DNA of 44,298 nt from a bacterium. Its GTDB lineage: Bacteria > Bacteroidota > Rhodothermia > Balneolales > M1805. A model generated the notes under the pieces. The model ran no database searches and was not told the DNA's origin. It saw only the letters and a list, made by a program, of their open reading frames with translations. Position numbers and translations under genes: made by a program. Positions within the stretch are counted from its first letter, which is position 1. Every line of letters begins with the position of its first letter. Location of the stretch: contig SBGQ01000147.1 in NCBI GenBank assembly GCA_006226965.1, positions 1-44,298 on the forward strand, written 5' to 3'. Shown one piece after another: positions 5,889 through 44,150 of this stretch.

Positions 5889-8800
5889 TTAGGCTTCGGT
5901 TGTTTGTGGTTCGTATAACTGAACCATGTTTTCGTAAATCTTCCAATGATCTTTCACTTGCTTTTGAGCTGCTTTCATGAGTTCTTTTGCATGTTGAGGA
6001 TCAAATTTGTGAAGCATCATATAACGTGTTTCACGCAATGCATATTCATCAAACGGAATAGAAGGTCCTTTAGAGTCTAATTGGAACGGGTTTTTTCCTT
6101 CTAATGTCAACGCAGGATTAAATCTGAACAATGGCCAGTAGCCGGAATCCACGGCTAATTTTTGTTGATTGAGTCCGTTTTTCATTTCAATACCGTGTGC
6201 AATACAATGGCTGTAAGCAATTATCAAAGAAGGCCCGTCATAAGCTTCAGCTTCCATTATAGCTTTTAAGGTTTGAGTGTCTTTTGCGCCCATCGCAATT
6301 CTTGCTACATAAACATTTCCGTACTGAACAGCTTGTAAAGCTAGGTCTTTTTTCGCATTGGGTTTACCGCCGGCAGCAAATTTAGCAACAGCACCTAAAG
6401 GAGTTGCTTTCGACATTTGTCCACCTGTGTTTGAATATACTTCGGTATCTAGAACCAAAATATTGACATTTCTGCCTGATGCCATTACGTGATCGAGCCC
6501 ACCGTAACCAATATCATAAGCCCAACCATCACCACCGAGAATCCAAACAGATTTTTTCACGAGGAAATCGGCAAGAGCAACCAAACGTTTTGCATCTGCA
6601 TTTGAATTGCCGTCTAGTTTTTTGCGTAATTCTATAATGCGTTCTCGTTGTTCGTTTATTCCTGTTTCTTCTGTTTGATCAGCACTAAGGATTGCATTTG
6701 CTAAGGTGTCGCCAAGATCTGAAGCTAATTTTTTAACCAGATTTTCAGCTTGAAGTTTTTTCATATCAACGGCAACTCGGTAACCTAAACCAAATTCAGC
6801 GTTGTCTTCGAATAAAGAGTTTGACCATGCCGGACCGCGACCATCTTTGTTCTTTGTCCAAGGCGTAGTTGGTAAGTTCCCTCCGTAAATAGAAGAACAA
6901 CCTGTTGCATTCGCAACAAGCATTCTATCGCCGTACAATTGGGTAACTAATTTGATGTAAGGTGTTTCACCGCAACCTGAACAAGCGCCGGAGAATTCAA
7001 ATAAAGGTTGTAATACTTGTGAACCTTTTATAGTTGATTTTTGAACCAAATCGCGATTGAATTCAGGAATAGATTGGAAGAATTCCCAATTTGCTTTTTC
7101 TGTTTCCAAATGCTCATCAATCGGCTTCATATTAATCGCTTTTTGAGAGACATTGGTTTTGTTTTTAGCAGGGCAAACTTCAACACATAATTCACAACCG
7201 GTACAATCTTCTGGTGAAACCTGAACGGTCATCATGGTTCCTTCTGGGAAGTCTTTACCACGAGCTTTCATAGCGTTGAAAGATTCAGGTGCGCCTTCGA
7301 GAACAGTTCCATCAAATGCTTTTAAGCGGATAACGGCATGAGGACATACAAATGCACATTTTCCGCACTGAATACACACATCAGGGTCTAAAATCGGAAT
7401 ACTGGTTGCGATACAACGTTTTTCGATTTCTGAGGTGCCGGATGGGAACGTTCCGTCTGCATTAAATGCACTTACAGGTAAAGAATCGCCGTTTCCAGAT
7501 AGAATTGGGGAAGTTACTTTGCGAATGAATGCTTCGATTTCAGGGTCGAGAGCTATGCTCGATTGTTTGCCTACCGTAGCTGCCTCACGCATTTTAACAT
7601 CACTGTCAGATGAGCCCGGATAGTTCACCAAATGTAAACCGGAAACAGAAGCATCAACCGCATCAAAGTTTTGTTGTACAACAACATCGCCACGTTTTCC
7701 ATAGGTTTTTTTGATGGCTTTTTTGATGGATTCAATAGCTTGTTCTTGCGGTAAAATTCCTGAAATGGCAAAGAAACATGTTTGCATAACCGTGTTAATA
7801 CGGCGACCCATTCCGGCATTATCTGAAACGGTTTCAGCATCAATTACATAGAATTTGAGCTTTTTAGCAATGATTTCATCCTGTACAAATTTTGGAATCT
7901 TGCTCCATACTTCATCAGCAGAAAAAGGAGAATTCAATAAGAAAACAGCGCCTTCCTCAGCGTATTTGAGCATATCAATCCGTTGCATAAAATTAAATTG
8001 ATGACACGCAACGAAATTCGCTTTTTGGATGAGGTATGTCGATTGAATAGGTTTTGGGCCAAATCGTAAGTGAGATACTGTGGTAGAACCGGATTTTTTT
8101 GAATCGTAAACGAAATAACCTTGGCTGTAAAACTTAGTACTGTCGCCAATAATTTTGATGGAGTTTTTATTCGCACTTACGGTACCATCAGAACCTAAGC
8201 CGAAGAATAAGCCACGGAATACTTCTTTTGCTTCGTTGTATTCTGATTCGTCATAGCTTAAGCTTGAACCGCTAACGTCATCATTAATACCAACTGTAAA
8301 ATGATTTTTGCGTGAATCAGATTTTAAATTGTCGAAAACGGATTTAACCATAGCAGGAGTGAACTCTTTGCTGGATAAACCATAGCGTCCGCCAATTACA
8401 ATCGGATTAAAACTTGTAGGTAGCCATTCTTGATTTCTGGATTCAAAAATTGCAGCCAATACATCTTGATAAAGAGGTTCGCCGGTAGCACCGGGCTCTT
8501 TGGTTCTGTCTAAAACAGCAATACGTTTTACGCTTAAAGGTAGAACTTTAGCAAAAGATTCTATAGAGAATGGGCGGAACAAACGAACGGATAAAACACC
8601 GATATTATAACCGTTTTCCTTTAACCAATCTGCAGCTTCACGAGCGGTTTCAACTCCGGAACCCATCAAAATAATAACATCTTCAGCTGTATCGCTGCCG
8701 AAATAATCGAATAAGTTGTATTGGCGTCCGGTTAACTCAGCAAACTTGTCCATGTATTTTTGAACAATCGCCGGAGTGTTTTCATAATAAGGAGTACCCG

Positions 8801-19038: not shown

Positions 19039-20595
19039 ATGATCGTAGTACCATTAGGCGTATCGTCAGCAACCCCAACAGCAAACCGACATTTACCTGC
19101 AGTAGCACTTTGGAGAGAAGGTAGAATCTTTTTATTCGATTGTGGTGAAAACGCACAAATGCAAATGCTTAAAATCGGAATGAAGCGTTCCAAAATCGAT
19201 TACATTTTTATAACGCATTTAGACGGCGACCATTTCTTTGGCTTGCCGGGCTTGTTATCAACCTTGCATATTCAGCGCAGAGAAAAAGACCTTACAATAG
19301 TTGGTCCCGTTGGAATTAAAGAATATGTTGATTTCCATTTAAGATTTACAAACATTGATTTAACCTTTGATATTCATTATATCGAATTAGAAGAAGGTTT
19401 TGAAGGCGGAATCGTTGTTGATGAGGATGAATTTCAAGTTGAAGCTCGCCCGTTAGTTCACAATATTTTTTGTTTAGGTTATCGTTTCCAGGAAAAAGAC
19501 AAACCCGGTAAAGTTGATGCTGCAAAAGCTGCTGAATTTGGTATCGTAGAAGATCAGCAATTCAAAGATTTAAAAGCCGGTTTAGATGTGACTTTAGAAG
19601 ACGGTACAAAAGTACAGGCTTCTGATATTGTTGGTGAACTCAGAAAAGGTAAATCAGTTACTTATATCACTGATACTCGTGTTTGCCCAAATGCAGTAGA
19701 ACTTGCAAAAGAAACAACATTCTTATTCCACGAAGCTACTTTCGGAACTGCAATAGCTGATAAAGCCGTAGAAACTATGCACTCAACAGCTGAAGAAGCA
19801 GCAATGGTTGCAAAAGAAGCAAATGCAGAACGTTTAATTTTAACTCACTATTCTGCTCGCTACACCAACGAGTACGTGCTTTATAAAGAAGCAAAAGCTC
19901 AATTCGAAAACGTTTGGGTGGCTAATGAGTTAAGACCAATTATGACTGACCCGGCTACCGAATCTGGAATTTTCAGAGTTCCTAGAGAAGCAATGGCTCA
20001 AAGACGTCCACAAAGCACTGGTGGATTTAGAAGAGGCGGATTCTCACGTCCAAGCGGCGGTGGTTTTGGCGGAAGAAGACCATACAACTCCGGCGGTGGC
20101 GGCGGATTTAACCGTGGCGGCAGCGGAGGCGGCCAAAGAAGACCATACAACTCCGGCGGCGGCGGTGGCCAAAGAAGACCATACAATTCCGGTGGCGGCG
20201 ATTATTATCGTAACGACAGAAACAACGAAAGAAGTAATGATAGAGGCGGATTTGCCGGAAGTTCACGTCGTTTTGATAATAACAATCGTGGACCTGCAGG
20301 AAGCAGTAGCGGTGGATTTGAGCGTCGTTCTTACGATAATAACAACAATCGTGGTTTTGATAACCGCAACTATGATTCTCGTGACAGAAGCTTTAACCGC
20401 GATAGAAATTTCGGAGATCGTCAGGATTACAGACCAAGAAATGACGACCGTTTCGACAACCGCAGAAGTTTTAATAATGACAGACCGGAACAACGTAGTG
20501 GAAACACCGATTACAACAACGATCGCCGCTATTTTGGTGAGAAAAAAGATGTAATTAAACCACGTAACAACTTTGACGATTACGATCGTTTCTAG
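19039..20595 (+). CDS. rnz: Ribonuclease Z with RGG/Asn-rich C-terminal tail
   Basis: tRNA 3'-end processing endonuclease of the metallo-beta-lactamase fold. Residues 1 to about 318 are a full-length RNase Z: PLGVSSATPTANRHLPA, LFDCGENAQMQM, THLDGDHFFGLPGLL, LVHNIFCLGYRF with the following E-x-KPGK loop, YITDTR, FLFHEATFG and LILTHYSARY. Two things are odd. The metal motif reads H60-L-D62-G-D64-H65, with Asp where the family has the second His. And residues 326-518 are a low-complexity tail: an RGG/Gly-rich part with three RRPYNSGGG copies, then an Asn/Asp/Arg-rich part. Typical RNase Z proteins end near 305-320 residues. The ATG follows GAGGAAAAAAC. It lies between two halves of a probable heterodimeric exporter. 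Confidence 0.93.
   Translation: MIVVPLGVSSATPTANRHLPAVALWREGRIFLFDCGENAQMQMLKIGMKRSKIDYIFITHLDGDHFFGLPGLLSTLHIQRREKDLTIVGPVGIKEYVDFHLRFTNIDLTFDIHYIELEEGFEGGIVVDEDEFQVEARPLVHNIFCLGYRFQEKDKPGKVDAAKAAEFGIVEDQQFKDLKAGLDVTLEDGTKVQASDIVGELRKGKSVTYITDTRVCPNAVELAKETTFLFHEATFGTAIADKAVETMHSTAEEAAMVAKEANAERLILTHYSARYTNEYVLYKEAKAQFENVWVANELRPIMTDPATESGIFRVPREAMAQRRPQSTGGFRRGGFSRPSGGGFGGRRPYNSGGGGGFNRGGSGGGQRRPYNSGGGGGQRRPYNSGGGDYYRNDRNNERSNDRGGFAGSSRRFDNNNRGPAGSSSGGFERRSYDNNNNRGFDNRNYDSRDRSFNRDRNFGDRQDYRPRNDDRFDNRRSFNNDRPEQRSGNTDYNNDRRYFGEKKDVIKPRNNFDDYDRF
20074..20199 (+). repeat. Three copies of a 27-bp repeat encoding RRPYNSGGG
   Basis: Near-identical 27-base units at 20074-20100, 20137-20163 and 20173-20199 within the rnz tail. 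They differ only at wobble positions, so they arose by recent duplication or are under protein-level selection. Intervening codons are Gly/Arg-rich. Confidence 0.85.
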
Positions 20596-33983: not shown

Positions 33984-34117
33984 TTTATGTGAAGAGAAAG
34001 CCTATTTCTAAGCTTCTTAAGAAAAAACTAACATAAAAGTGTTTGATAATCATTTTAGATTGATTACACTGATTTAGTACATTTTTCTGGACAAGAGAAT
34101 GATGTTTAGGATTGAAT

Positions 34118-38912: not shown

Positions 38913-39779
38913 TTGACTGAAAATATCTATATGGATTCTACAAGAAGATTTAACAATGAGTTAGCCGCCTTCAAAGAAGGGAAAACTATTCAGCACGATG
39001 AGGGTGAAGTTGTTAAAATTCCGGAAAACCAAAAGAAATCGTTTATCAAGCTAAGTTTGATTTTAGTCGTATTAACTGTAATTGGTTATTACCTGATTAA
39101 ATTGCCGTTATCGAAGCAAAGTATCAGCACAAACGGTAAGAATATTGAACAGGCCTTAAATTTTGATTCATATGCCTTGCTTATACAAGAGCGATTTCCT
39201 GATTGGATGAAAAACGAGGAATTAATCAGCCAACTATACACAAACTCTGTTTCGATAAGAACTATTTCTTTAATAAATCAAGCAAAAAAACTTGATTCGA
39301 CTTCTTTAAATGAATTTATAGCGATTGAACGTTTTATTGATCACGCTCCGGAATCTAACGATCAAACGATTGTCGAGTTCTTGAATCATTTTGCGCCCAA
39401 TGATTTAACCATTGCTCATGAAGCAGGTGTCGATATTTCTAACTGTAATGCTATAAACACAAATACTCTATTTGAAACATTGTCTTTTGATGATATAACG
39501 TTACTTGCATCAATTGACACGCAAGGTTTACTAAAATCGTTCAAAAAAAACAGCTATACGGAGAAGTTAACGCAATCTGATTGGTTGTTAATTGCTGAAA
39601 AGGGTGTTAATTCTAATTTTATTGATTCGATTTACAATGCAGTAGGCGATTTTTCAAGTGAATTATCCGTAAATGATGTGGTTCAGTTATCAAGCAAAAA
39701 TATTCAACCAGATATAGTTATAAAAGCTTTACAATCGTCTGATAAAAAGCAGATTGATGAATTATTAGTAAACAATTAA
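38913..39779 (+). CDS. Membrane-anchored helical-repeat protein A (unknown function)
   Basis: 288 residues from TTG 38913. I prefer this to ATG 38931 because it aligns MTENIY with MKNNLY of the next gene. Layout: cytosolic N-tail with a conserved AFKE (19-22), one membrane helix 44-62 (FIKLSLILVVLTVIGYYLI), then a mostly helical, acidic extracytoplasmic part. The C-terminal ~125 residues are four degenerate 30-residue units beginning LSFDD, LTQSD, LSVND and similar, each with a (D/E)-x-x-x-L pattern followed by G/N-I and a hydrophobic cluster. The last unit (VVQLSSKNIQPDIVIKAL) resembles units of the next gene (LVNLKKNKITPDVINPWI). Both genes share an FIK-x-(S/T)LI membrane entry, so they are paralogues. 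No enzymatic motif. Confidence 0.6.
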   Translation: MTENIYMDSTRRFNNELAAFKEGKTIQHDEGEVVKIPENQKKSFIKLSLILVVLTVIGYYLIKLPLSKQSISTNGKNIEQALNFDSYALLIQERFPDWMKNEELISQLYTNSVSIRTISLINQAKKLDSTSLNEFIAIERFIDHAPESNDQTIVEFLNHFAPNDLTIAHEAGVDISNCNAINTNTLFETLSFDDITLLASIDTQGLLKSFKKNSYTEKLTQSDWLLIAEKGVNSNFIDSIYNAVGDFSSELSVNDVVQLSSKNIQPDIVIKALQSSDKKQIDELLVNN

Positions 39780-39813
39780 TAGATTGAATTGAGATTTAAC
39801 AGAAGAATAGCAT

Positions 39814-41025
39814 ATGAAAAATAATCTCTACGAAAAAAAAGAGTTCCGGGCTTTTAAAGAACAACCATCCAATCAGTCGTTAAATCCAAAAGAACCTGAA
39901 TATGATGTTGATGAGCCAAAAGGTCCGGTTCGCACTTTTATTAAATACACGTTAATTATAAGTGCATTTATAATGGTTCCAATGTTTATTAGTACACAAG
40001 GCATCGTAAAAGATGTGTTATCTAATTTGCATATCACAATCGGCGACTCTGATGAAAAAACACCGGAAGTTGCAGCTCCAAGTGCGCCAATTCCTCCGCC
40101 TCTGGTTCTTAATAAGAAACAATTATCTGAAGATATAAACCGAAAGGTTCAGGAGGCTTTAGAAAAGGCACAATTATCTCAATCTATTTCACAACAAGTT
40201 CAGGAAGAAATTGCAAAAGGTTTAGCTGAAGCATCTGTAGAAATTGATGGAGAACAATTGTCAGAAGAAATTGAAGTTGCATTGGGTGAAGCGTTCTCTG
40301 CATTAGATGAGGCTCAATTGGACGAAAATGTCAGGTTAGAAGTAGAAAATGCGTTAAAATCTTTGGAAGGCCTTAAAGGATTAGATCAACTTGAGAATTT
40401 AGCGGCTTTAGAAGGATTAAGATCGCTCGAAGGTTTGGCGGTAACAATAGACGGTAATAATGAGACAAAGCCAATCGATATGCCCAAGCTAGACTATCTG
40501 CAAGCTGTTAAAAATGCAGGGTTGTCAGAAGATTTTGAAATGCACGAAATTGATAGTTTTTATAAAAACGGCATCACTGTTGACGATTTAAAGCAGATGG
40601 ATAAAAACGGATGGTTAGATGAATTCGAGTTCTATGAATTGGTAAACCTGAAGAAAAACAAAATTACACCCGATGTGATTAATCCATGGATAAAAAACGG
40701 ATACACACAGGATTATGAATTACATGAAATTCTAAGTTTTATCAAAAATGGTGTGGATTTTAATTATTTGAAGGAATTAGATAAAGCGGGTTTAACTTCA
40801 AATTTGGAGTTTTGGGAAATATCCAATCTGAAGAAAAAAGGATACTCTGCTAAAGACTTAGCTCCGTGGGCAAAATCTGGTTATTTGGGAAAGTTTGACG
40901 GACATGAAATCATCAATTTTATGGATAACAAAGTACCGCCAAGTTTTTTGGATGATTTAGCTAAGCGTGGTTTGTTGGATGATCTCGAATTTTGGGAAAT
41001 ATCAAAATTGTATAAAGACCAATAG
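39814..41025 (+). CDS. Membrane-anchored protein B with coiled and six 30-residue repeats (unknown function)
   Basis: 403 residues. N-tail MKNNLY...AFKE, membrane helix 42-60 (FIKYTLIISAFIMVPMFI) and a Pro-rich spacer (PSAPIPPPLVL). Residues ~97-190 hold about four amphipathic ~20-residue copies beginning QLSEDI, QLSQSI, QLSEEI and QLDENV, likely coiled-coil or self-associating helices. Residues 228-403 are exactly six 30-residue repeats (last one 26): 228, 258, 288, 318, 348 and 378 are starts. Odd units contain HEI-x-(S/N)F, or its DSF form, and even units contain EF(W/Y)E(I/L)-x-(N/K)L, giving a 60-residue super-period. No enzyme motif. The gene starts 34 bases after its paralogue and ends before a terminator. 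Confidence 0.7.
   Translation: MKNNLYEKKEFRAFKEQPSNQSLNPKEPEYDVDEPKGPVRTFIKYTLIISAFIMVPMFISTQGIVKDVLSNLHITIGDSDEKTPEVAAPSAPIPPPLVLNKKQLSEDINRKVQEALEKAQLSQSISQQVQEEIAKGLAEASVEIDGEQLSEEIEVALGEAFSALDEAQLDENVRLEVENALKSLEGLKGLDQLENLAALEGLRSLEGLAVTIDGNNETKPIDMPKLDYLQAVKNAGLSEDFEMHEIDSFYKNGITVDDLKQMDKNGWLDEFEFYELVNLKKNKITPDVINPWIKNGYTQDYELHEILSFIKNGVDFNYLKELDKAGLTSNLEFWEISNLKKKGYSAKDLAPWAKSGYLGKFDGHEIINFMDNKVPPSFLDDLAKRGLLDDLEFWEISKLYKDQ
40495..41022 (+). repeat. Six tandem 30-residue (90-bp) protein repeats
   Basis: Units of the form (L)-x-x-(L/W)-x-K-x-G-(L/W/Y)-x-x-x-(F/L)-(E/D)-x-x-EI-x-x-(F/L)-x-K-(N)-x-I/V, alternating two types. At the DNA level they have diverged, so they are old repeats kept by protein selection. 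Confidence 0.85.
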
Positions 41026-41050: not shown

Positions 41051-41090
41051 AAAGCGGTTTTTACTGAAAAAGTGAAAACCGCTTTCTTAT
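41051..41090 (+). terminator. Rho-independent terminator after the repeat-protein pair
   Basis: AAAGCGGTTTT pairs with AAAACCGCTTT around an ACT-GAAAA-AGT inner hairpin, followed by a T-rich stretch (TCTTATTTT). Confidence 0.85.
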
Positions 41091-41170: not shown

Positions 41171-42754
41171 ATGAGTCCAAAATCAACCAGTTTTACGCAA
41201 ACCCATTACCAACTTCTGCTCGATTCGGTTACTGATTATATATATACCGTATCAATCGTAAATGAACAAGTTTCCGATACCAAACATGGACCGGCTTGTT
41301 TCAATGTAACCGGATATACTCAACATGAACTTGAAGAAGATGAAGATTTGTGGTTCACCATGGTTCATGACGATGACAGAAAGCTGGTTTTGGAACAAGC
41401 AGCTTTAGCAAAATTGGGAAAAACAGTAAAAGAAATTGAGCATAGAATAACACACAAAGACGGCTCCATTCGCTGGGTTCGAAACACCATTGTTGTTAGA
41501 TTCGATGATAAAGACGATTCAAAAGTTGTTGGTTATGATGGACTTATTCAAAACATTACTGACAAAAAGCTGGCAGAAGAAGCATTAAGAAGTTCAGAGC
41601 AGAGATATAGAAATCTGTTAAATTCGATAACCGATTATATCTATACTGTTACCGTTGACAAGGGCAAAGTCGTAAAAACGGAACATGGACCGGCTTGTGT
41701 AAAAGTAACAGGCTACACGTCTGAGGAATATGTTGAGGATGAAGAGCTTTGGTATCGGATGATTGTAGAAGAAGACAGAAAAGAAGTTGTACGATTTGCT
41801 AATAAAGCCGTAAAAGGGGAGTCTATTCAACCATTTGAACACCGAATTATTCATAAAGACGGTACAATTCGATGGGTTCGAAATACCATTGTAGCCAGAA
41901 AAGATTCAACCGGTTCTGTTTTAGCATATGATGGACTCATAAGCGATATCACCGATAGAAAAAAAGCAGAGCAGTTAGCAACTTTGCAAAAAGAACAGCT
42001 CATTCAAGCAGAAAAAATGGTGACTTTAGGCATTCTGGTTTCAGGCGTTGCACATGAGATTAATAACCCTAATAATTTCATCATGTTAAATGCCAGAATG
42101 TTGCAAAAGATTTGGCTCGATGTTGAGCAACATTTAGATTGTATGACTAAAGAAAAAGGTTCTGTTGAATTGGCAGGGATTCATTATCCGGCTGAAAAAG
42201 AGCAAATACATCGATTACTGCAAGCTGTAACTGACGGCGGAAAACGAATCCAAAAAATTGTTACCGGTCTAAAAGATTTTGCCCGACAAGATACCGGCGA
42301 GATGAAAGCCGGAGTATCGATAAATGAAATCGTAAATCAAGCGGTTTTAATCGTAAATAATCTCATTCAGAAAGCTACCAATCGTTTCGAACTGGATCTT
42401 AATACACAAATTCCCGTCATAAAAGGTAATTTTCAAAAGTTAGAGCAAGTGCTTATTAATTTAATTACAAATTCTTGTCAGGCTTTAACCGATAAAAATC
42501 AACGTTTAACGATTCAAACAGGACTTACATCAAGCAATAAAGAAGTTTTTATTAGGGTGATTGATGAAGGAAAAGGAATTGATGACGATGTAATGAAACA
42601 TATGTTCGACCCGTTTTTTACAACAAAACGAGATACAGGCGGAACTGGTTTAGGTCTGTCGATTTCGTATACTATTGTTAAAGACCATGGCGGTGAATTG
42701 TATTTTAAACGAGATCAGCAAAAGACCATTGCAACTATAAAACTCCCGGTTTAG
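41171..42754 (+). CDS. PAS-PAS sensor histidine kinase
   Basis: Cytosolic sensor kinase of 527 residues. Two PAS/PAC units (about 13-137 and 146-262) are clearly duplicated copies of each other: both contain DYIYTV, HGPAC-x-x-VTGYT, an acidic E-x-LW step, EHRI-x-HKDG-(S/T)-IRWVRNTIV and GLI-x-(N/D)ITD-(K/R)-K. The H-box is GVAHEINNPNNF, His295 as phosphoacceptor, and the ATPase has NLITNSCQAL, IDEGKGI, FFTTKRDTGGTGLGLSI. Lack of membrane helices suggests a soluble signal. The NtrC-type regulator starts 4 bases after its stop, so they form a two-component pair. Confidence 0.93.
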   Translation: MSPKSTSFTQTHYQLLLDSVTDYIYTVSIVNEQVSDTKHGPACFNVTGYTQHELEEDEDLWFTMVHDDDRKLVLEQAALAKLGKTVKEIEHRITHKDGSIRWVRNTIVVRFDDKDDSKVVGYDGLIQNITDKKLAEEALRSSEQRYRNLLNSITDYIYTVTVDKGKVVKTEHGPACVKVTGYTSEEYVEDEELWYRMIVEEDRKEVVRFANKAVKGESIQPFEHRIIHKDGTIRWVRNTIVARKDSTGSVLAYDGLISDITDRKKAEQLATLQKEQLIQAEKMVTLGILVSGVAHEINNPNNFIMLNARMLQKIWLDVEQHLDCMTKEKGSVELAGIHYPAEKEQIHRLLQAVTDGGKRIQKIVTGLKDFARQDTGEMKAGVSINEIVNQAVLIVNNLIQKATNRFELDLNTQIPVIKGNFQKLEQVLINLITNSCQALTDKNQRLTIQTGLTSSNKEVFIRVIDEGKGIDDDVMKHMFDPFFTTKRDTGGTGLGLSISYTIVKDHGGELYFKRDQQKTIATIKLPV

Positions 42755-42758
42755 TGTT

Positions 42759-44150
42759 ATGAAGTTTCCCGAAGTACCCATTTTATTAGTTGATGATGAA
42801 ACCGAGTTTCTATTCAGCGCTGAGTTAATTTTAAAATCGGAGCGCATCACTAACGTTCAGACTTGTTCAGACAGCAGAAAAGTGAAAGATTTAATGGAAA
42901 AACACGATTTTTCCGTTGTATTGTTTGATATGTCTATGCCTTACGTTTCGGGTTTTGAATTGCTTGAATATGTAACAGAACGCTTTCCGCATATTCCGGT
43001 AATCATTTTAACCGCATTGCAAGATGTTGAATTGGCTGTTAACAGTATGAAGTTGGGTGCCTTTGAATACATTTTAAAGCCCATACAGGAATCGGCGCTT
43101 GTTGGCAGTATAAAACGCGCAATTGAACATGCTGAAATCAAAAATGAAAACCTTCGCCTGAAAGAAAAACTGCTGGTTGGCGGAGTTCAACATCCTGAGA
43201 ATTTTGTAGAAATTGTAACAACCGATGAAAAAATGCATTCCTTGTTTAGTTACATCGAAGCCATTGCAAAAACTCATTTACCGGTGTTGGTGCAAGGAGA
43301 TACCGGAGTCGGGAAAGAATTATTTGCTCAAGCCATCCATAAATCAAGTGAACGAAAAGGAGAGTTGGTTGCAGTAAATGTGGCAGGTGTTGATGACAAT
43401 ATGTTTTCAGATACCTTGTTCGGTCACGTTAAAGGAGCTTTTACCGGTGCTGATACAAACAGAAAAGGCTTGATCGAGCAGGCGCAAAACGGAACCTTGT
43501 TTTTGGACGAAATCGGTGATTTAAGCAATGAATCGCAAGTGAAGTTATTACGCCTAATTCAAGAGAATAAATATTATCCAGTTGGTTCCGATGAACCTAA
43601 AGTGTCGAATGCCAGAATAATTGTAGCAACTCATAAAGACCTGAATGAGATGCAAAAAAGCAAAAGCTTTCGATCTGATTTATATTACCGATTGCAAAGC
43701 CATAAAATTTTAATACCTGCATTGCGAGAGCGCAAAGCAGATTTAGAGAAACTGACTGAATTTCTGCTCGAAAAGGCTTCAAATGCGCTAGGAAAGAAGA
43801 AGCCAACCGTCCCCAAGGCTTTGTACACATTGCTCAAGAACTACAGTTTTCCCGGAAATATCAGAGAATTAGAGGGTATTATTGTTGATGCTGTAAGCAG
43901 ACACCAAGGCGGTGTTTTATCTATGGATACATTCCGTGAAAAAATCGATTTTGTCGGTGAAGATGTTGTAGTAAGTGAAGATGTTCAACACAATGAAAAA
44001 GTTAAATTTGGGGATGTTTTACCCACTTTAAAAGAAGTTGAAGAACAATTAATTGATGAAGCACTCAAAAGAAGTGAAGGAAATCAAAGTATCGCCGCAA
44101 ATTTAATCGGACTATCTAGGCGAGCACTAAACAATCGATTGAATCGATAA
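42759..44150 (+). CDS. NtrC-family sigma-54-dependent response regulator
   Basis: 463 residues. Receiver domain with LLVDDE, phosphoacceptor Asp57 in VVLFDMSMP and Lys in ILKPIQES. The AAA+ domain has Walker A GDTGVGKELFAQAIH, the sigma-54 contact loop GAFTGAD, Walker B LFLDEIGDL and an arginine-finger region FRSDLYYRL. The C-terminal Fis-type helix-turn-helix is QSIAANLIGLSRRALNNRL. It activates sigma-54 promoters when phosphorylated, presumably by the PAS-PAS kinase just upstream. Candidate binding repeats lie directly downstream (44155-44260), so a target may lie beyond the window edge. Confidence 0.95.
   Translation: MKFPEVPILLVDDETEFLFSAELILKSERITNVQTCSDSRKVKDLMEKHDFSVVLFDMSMPYVSGFELLEYVTERFPHIPVIILTALQDVELAVNSMKLGAFEYILKPIQESALVGSIKRAIEHAEIKNENLRLKEKLLVGGVQHPENFVEIVTTDEKMHSLFSYIEAIAKTHLPVLVQGDTGVGKELFAQAIHKSSERKGELVAVNVAGVDDNMFSDTLFGHVKGAFTGADTNRKGLIEQAQNGTLFLDEIGDLSNESQVKLLRLIQENKYYPVGSDEPKVSNARIIVATHKDLNEMQKSKSFRSDLYYRLQSHKILIPALRERKADLEKLTEFLLEKASNALGKKKPTVPKALYTLLKNYSFPGNIRELEGIIVDAVSRHQGGVLSMDTFREKIDFVGEDVVVSEDVQHNEKVKFGDVLPTLKEVEEQLIDEALKRSEGNQSIAANLIGLSRRALNNRLNR

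Follow-up and report, generated by a model that had tools for sequence, protein, structure and literature searches.

What do two adjacent genes of a Balneolales bacterium contribute to its cell envelope, and to which protein family, if any, do they belong? The window analysed here, i.e. the whole stretch of DNA under study, comprises 44,298 nucleotides, and the two genes, referred to as A and B, were described in the sequence-only reading as paralogues encoding membrane-anchored repeat proteins. The following features were located.

38913 or 38931-39779, plus strand: gene A, 288 amino acids if started at TTG 38913 and 282 if started at ATG 38931; N-terminal tail, one transmembrane (TM) helix and a degenerate helical-repeat solenoid.
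39042-39098, plus strand: predicted TM helix of A (FIKLSLILVVLTVIGYYLI), from hydropathy and an AlphaFold2 helix at residues 38-57.
39814-41025, plus strand: gene B, 403 amino acids; N-terminal tail, TM helix, a Pro-rich and then helical, LEGL-rich linker and six repeats of ~30 residues.
39934-40008, plus strand: predicted TM region of B, from hydropathy and an AlphaFold2 helix at residues 40-71.
40114-40452, plus strand: linker of B, helical and rich in LEGL, which marks the third gene of the Balneolales arrays (see below), from linker alignment and the type III profile.
40474-41022, plus strand: predicted periplasmic solenoid of B, six two-helix repeats of 30 residues alternating as a 60-residue unit, from AlphaFold2 and self-comparison.
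41051-41085, plus strand: Rho-independent terminator hairpin (-20.3 kcal/mol, z -6.1 versus shuffles), followed by T-rich sequence.

Both reading frames are open at these coordinates and, as noted earlier, lie 34 bases apart on the plus strand; A and B are presumably co-transcribed. The terminator that had been proposed to bound the pair was also recovered, as the strong hairpin closes the A-B unit ahead of a histidine kinase gene. GC3 is 0.30 in each gene and equals that of the neighbours in the window, which argues only against a recent transfer. Read from ATG 38931, A begins with MDSTRRFNNEL..., and relatives begin with MSSQRFKNEL... or MANQRFKNEL..., so that this codon appears to fit the relatives' starts better than TTG 38913. 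The common start M-x-x-N-(I/L)-Y that had been attributed to both proteins is present in A only if translation begins at TTG 38913, and is therefore doubtful given the likelier in-frame ATG.

Hydropathy analysis revealed one clear TM segment near the N-terminus of each protein, at residues 38-56 of A counted from the ATG (KD 2.32) and at residues ~41-65 of B (KD 2.01), in line with the membrane anchoring suggested before. AFKE and FIK-x-(S/T)LI likewise occur in both proteins. Tail and TM segment of A (from the ATG) and B taken together resemble each other more than shuffled sequences do (p about 0.001); for the N-terminal tails on their own the likeness is not significant (p 0.15). K/R residues ahead of each TM segment and the acidic C-terminal parts (net charge -13 and -30) suggest an N-in/C-out topology. 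For A, this topology is supported mainly by analogy, because the positive charge after its TM segment equals that before it. The cytoplasmic tails would comprise about 37-46 residues. Relatives carry the acidic motif DPDFDLDxY(I/L)xE in this tail, and at this position B reads PEYDVDE, whereas A has no counterpart; scored with family profiles, both tails are at chance level.

The repeats of B extend from about residue 223 to the end and are evident from self-comparison, with a self-match of 1.97 at lag 60 and 0.85 at lag 30 compared to 0.10 for the best of 500 shuffles. An AlphaFold2 model based on the family alignment predicts paired short helices in this part, with pLDDT values of 94-98 for about residues 221-403. 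The corresponding model of A (mean pLDDT 80.8) predicts a solenoid of the same kind at pLDDT values of about 76-95, and self-comparison of A gave no significant repeats. The helical repeats of about 30 residues claimed for both proteins are hence clear in B, while in A they emerge from profile and model but not from self-comparison. A's repeats are degenerate, and A and B could therefore have unlike jobs. Foldseek retrieved no convincing solved fold for either model (best E 0.09 for A and 3.9 for B), and B matched no sequence in the PDB. The same database searched with the family profile returned DotF at 0.009 over tail, TM segment and linker, which we consider unconvincing. An assignment of B to BTB/POZ (PF02214, 2.2e-5) was dismissed, since it covers only 35 residues of one repeat, where AlphaFold2 predicts a two-helix solenoid.

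A profile of 39 relatives that excluded A and B was searched against the six-frame translation of the whole genome and retrieved B at 1.3e-34 and A at 5.1e-4, with no third match even at E 10. With the all-family profile, the repeats of B scored 124.6 bits compared to 8.8 in 1000 shuffles, and A scored 19.8-20.9 bits compared to 13.0 in as many. Similarly, a phmmer search against all ORFs of ten relative loci ranked the same kind of protein first for A (2.1e-7) and B (8.4e-31). The A/B-free profile and the shuffle controls therefore detect just two family members in the genome, of which B is secure, whereas the support for A is good though weaker. A as lone query weakly matched some of B's relative loci, a first scan of the genome contigs with B gave no match, and direct BLASTP of A versus B reached only E 0.05. 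The proposed paralogy consequently rests on the match of both proteins to one repeat family.

No Pfam or NCBIfam model describes the A/B repeat. Matches of single repeats to Pfam, NCBIfam and PHROGs entries (COX6C, DUF2481, LED_rpt, MreC and others) were below cut-off or due to chance, PADLOC gave no match for A, B or an array protein of a relative (L042), and the literature searched, to which most subscription papers did not belong, contained no description of the arrays. The earlier statement that the pair belongs to no described family or characterised system is consistent with these results, but the pair is not isolated: it is part of a family specific to the lineage, and M56/BlaR1 receptors contain the repeat of this family as well. 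The plan of this family, a single TM segment near the N-terminus followed by a linker and a C-terminal solenoid, was found in A and B by hydropathy and AlphaFold2. Judged by sequence, A and B are divergent members of a Balneolales family that forms two- to four-gene arrays, with a function that is predicted only.

Within the order Balneolales, B matched one family, f3, which is probably Balneolaceae, at up to six places per genome, and had no match at E ≤ 0.001 in families f2, f4 and f5 (60 relatives searched). The array proteins are single-pass, carry the acidic tail motif and several repeats, and are encoded in tandem; their linkers are often Pro/Ala- or IPD-rich and extended. Tandem groups of two to four genes are present in 20 of the 28 genomes with strong matches, a count from merged matches in which G040 and G056 were scored as single, their two places being one split gene and one open gene. 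The co-occurrence in relatives that the sequence-only reading had put forward as a check is thus found in a general sense, A and B themselves being represented by the one genome available. In L048, a repeat gene is split into two ORFs of 132 and 114 amino acids (6831-7603) and is probably a disrupted copy.

The surroundings of the arrays recur and comprise threonine dehydratase, DUF2911, one or two YfbK-like vWA genes, the array, an ABC exporter, NfeD-like, two SPFH-like, M23-like peptidase and ECF-sigma-like genes, where the vWA protein and DUF2911 were checked with Pfam and the others were named by eye from sequence. A YfbK-like vWA gene adjoins five of seven array loci inspected; we regard it as a trait of the neighbourhood rather than one that defines the protein family. 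Arrays of 2-4 genes at this conserved locus were seen in L041, L042, L043, L045, L046, L049, L050 and L094, and their proteins have no convincing Pfam family. The window contains no YfbK-type vWA gene, and none was detected in the whole genome, in which the query matched large ORFs only via its N-terminal carboxypeptidase-regulatory-like region; an array-type SPFH query found one remote homologue only. The role of A and B does not seem to need the usual array neighbours.

Other members of the family are encoded outside the arrays. An extra single-copy relative often adjoins a glycosyltransferase gene elsewhere in the genome, and others stand beside DUF4350/MoxR-like genes. In two related genomes, copies of the repeat protein lie beside FliG-like and MotA/MotB-like genes (L088:4330-5538 and L092:4869-5909). 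A further single-copy relative of ~230-290 amino acids has BlaR1-like repeats and adjoins a stand-alone receiver protein, a possible signalling partner (L081:4957-5664, L082:4583-5293, L084:4029-4721, L085:3985-4845, L086:4984-5793 and L087:4477-5178); the L081 copy is from a genome without arrays.

The linker of B indicates which array member it corresponds to. Over its ~150 residues, the ten best matches are all third-gene proteins, ahead of any other type. The best score was 151; the linker scored 151 against the third gene of L094, compared to a maximum of 79 in 500 shuffles, and the type III profile gave 20.1 bits compared to 11.1 for the best shuffle. B is therefore the counterpart of the third array gene. 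The best scores of A are scattered over the array types. In a MenD tree, the A/B genome is placed outside f3 on a long branch, a position compatible with ancient retention with losses as well as with an old transfer.

In samples of the class and the phylum, the repeat occurs mainly in long ORFs, and those inspected encode peptidases of the M56/BlaR1 type, in most cases adjoined by a BlaI-type gene, as well as companion proteins that start with a signal-like stretch. The M56 assignment was verified with Pfam in three cases and the penicillinase repressor in one; the others were assigned by eye. In these receptors, the repeat of the A/B family forms a C-terminal extension (2e-32 for an M56 protein), a link between the two repeat sets that is based on HMM scores. 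One such protein of 1440 amino acids has about thirty or more nearly identical repeats of ~29 residues and is encoded beside a BlaI-type gene (L097:2527-6849). Among 245 class and 395 phylum genomes, no short single-pass form came to light outside the Balneolales, as far as the matches, the weak ones in part, were read. Judged from the profiles, M56-type proteins already contain homologous repeats. Their occurrence beside BlaI-type genes suggests a module for interaction or sensing.

Could A and B then feed a signalling pathway from the periplasm? The gene downstream of the pair encodes a PAS-PAS-HisKA-HATPase kinase, with a sigma-54 activator, an NtrC-type regulator, encoded next (together 41171-44150), and another kinase gene lies upstream at 34112. 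Input to one of these kinases would agree with the use of the repeat in BlaR1-type receptors and with the receiver protein that adjoins one kind of single-gene relative. However, the strong terminator lies between B and the kinase gene, PAS, HisKA and HATPase are the sole domains matched by the kinase, and the arrays of relatives are not adjacent to histidine kinases. Terminator and neighbourhoods speak against a single operon with the downstream kinase; a link is possible, and overall we regard such an input function as unlikely. The neighbours of A and B in the window (phosphoesterase, glycosyltransferase, PAS kinase) differ from those of relatives, and no BlaI-like gene was recognised among the window ORFs. 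The window also encodes an RNase Z-like metallo-beta-lactamase protein of 518 amino acids (19039-20595), in which two Lactamase_B_2 stretches leave the remainder unexplained. RNase Z-like proteins usually have a length of about 300 amino acids, so that this one is longer.

A sigma factor or anti-sigma factor had been suggested earlier as a third partner. The N-in single-pass layout would suit an anti-sigma factor, and relatives have an ECF sigma-like gene in the wider array neighbourhood (L043, L045, L046 and L050). That gene does not adjoin the array: ABC, NfeD, two SPFH and M23 genes in mixed orientation lie in between, and up to four array paralogues accompany each sigma gene. No sigma factor was recognised among the window ORFs, part of which were profile-scanned, and the short tails of A and B match no anti-sigma domain. 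A sigma/anti-sigma system, or A or B as an anti-sigma factor, has little support, with no sigma gene recognised in the window and a distant one in relatives, and we consider it very improbable.

The reading that we put forward, with confidence evenly divided for and against, is that A and B are two subunits of a periplasmic scaffold or receptor anchored in the inner membrane. Each protein would cross the inner membrane once, leave a short tail in the cytoplasm and display in the periplasm an alpha-solenoid built from ~30-residue repeats, in B beyond an extended and helical spacer of ~150 residues. The solenoids may bind a partner in the envelope, either a protein or a peptide, and differing repeat surfaces could confer different specificities. 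A and B probably act together, conceivably as a hetero-assembly, as probably do the arrays of 2-4 subunits in relatives. Supported by computation are the architecture, the repeat family, the tandem organisation in relatives and the correspondence of B to the third array gene. The single-gene relatives in other contexts, i.e. beside FliG/MotA/MotB-like genes or a stand-alone receiver protein, were counted in favour of a scaffold or receptor, whereas the lack of a partner gene conserved with A and B counts against it.

It may further be speculated that the family constitutes a Balneolales-specific envelope machine, in which two to four diversified anchored solenoid subunits stand side by side across the periplasm and sense or transmit the state of the envelope, the BlaR1-type repeat having been uncoupled from protease and repressor; we consider this version decidedly unlikely. 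More simply, A and B could be structural tethers similar to TolA that do no more than hold the inner membrane at a distance from peptidoglycan or the outer membrane, or attach it to them, and that involve neither signal nor ligand. The succession of TM segment, Pro-rich stretch, long helical linker and terminal domain in B fits such a tether, as does the proximity of M23 peptidase, NfeD and SPFH genes to arrays. Neither protein matches TolA, TonB (including the respective Pfam models) or peptidoglycan-binding domains, and the diversified paralogues suggest binding specificity beyond spacing alone, so that we judge a purely structural role rather unlikely.

The scaffold or receptor reading would imply that this lineage has its own way to sense or organise the periplasm. 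Independent of function, the analysis defines a repeat family that lacks a Pfam or NCBIfam model, relates orphan membrane proteins to BlaR1-type receptors through their repeats and points out conserved loci for functional work, namely the arrays beside vWA and ABC/NfeD/SPFH/M23 genes and the flagellar-type clusters.

Among known systems, TAL-effector and MTERF alpha-solenoids (PDB 6jw4 and 4fp9), which also have short two-helix repeats, ranked with the best natural structures that Foldseek returned for the A model, but with E 0.1-0.2 and a TM-score below 0.3 the match was rejected. TolA/TonB-type inner-membrane proteins have an N-in TM segment, a long extended or helical linker and a C-terminal periplasmic domain. 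A and B resemble them in layout only; the C-terminal domain of A and B is predicted to be a helical solenoid. M56/BlaR1 antirepressors with BlaI (PF05569, PF03965; L096-L098, L100, L131-L134) contain, by profile, the homologous repeat YxxLSxDxLIxLxxxGVxxxYIxxLxxxG; A and B differ from them in having no M56 domain (no PF05569 match in either), multi-span membrane domain or BlaI partner. Closest are the f3 array proteins (e.g. JAKSCW010000292.1 of Balneolales bacterium MAG.339, L094). They differ in numbering up to four genes rather than two, in their neighbourhood, in identity to A and B (only about 14-25%) and, with regard to A, in the FDLDxY tail motif that A lacks, but share with the pair the short tail, TM segment, linker, ~30-residue repeats and tandem order, as well as a similar last repeat, VPxSFLxxLxxRGLLDDM.
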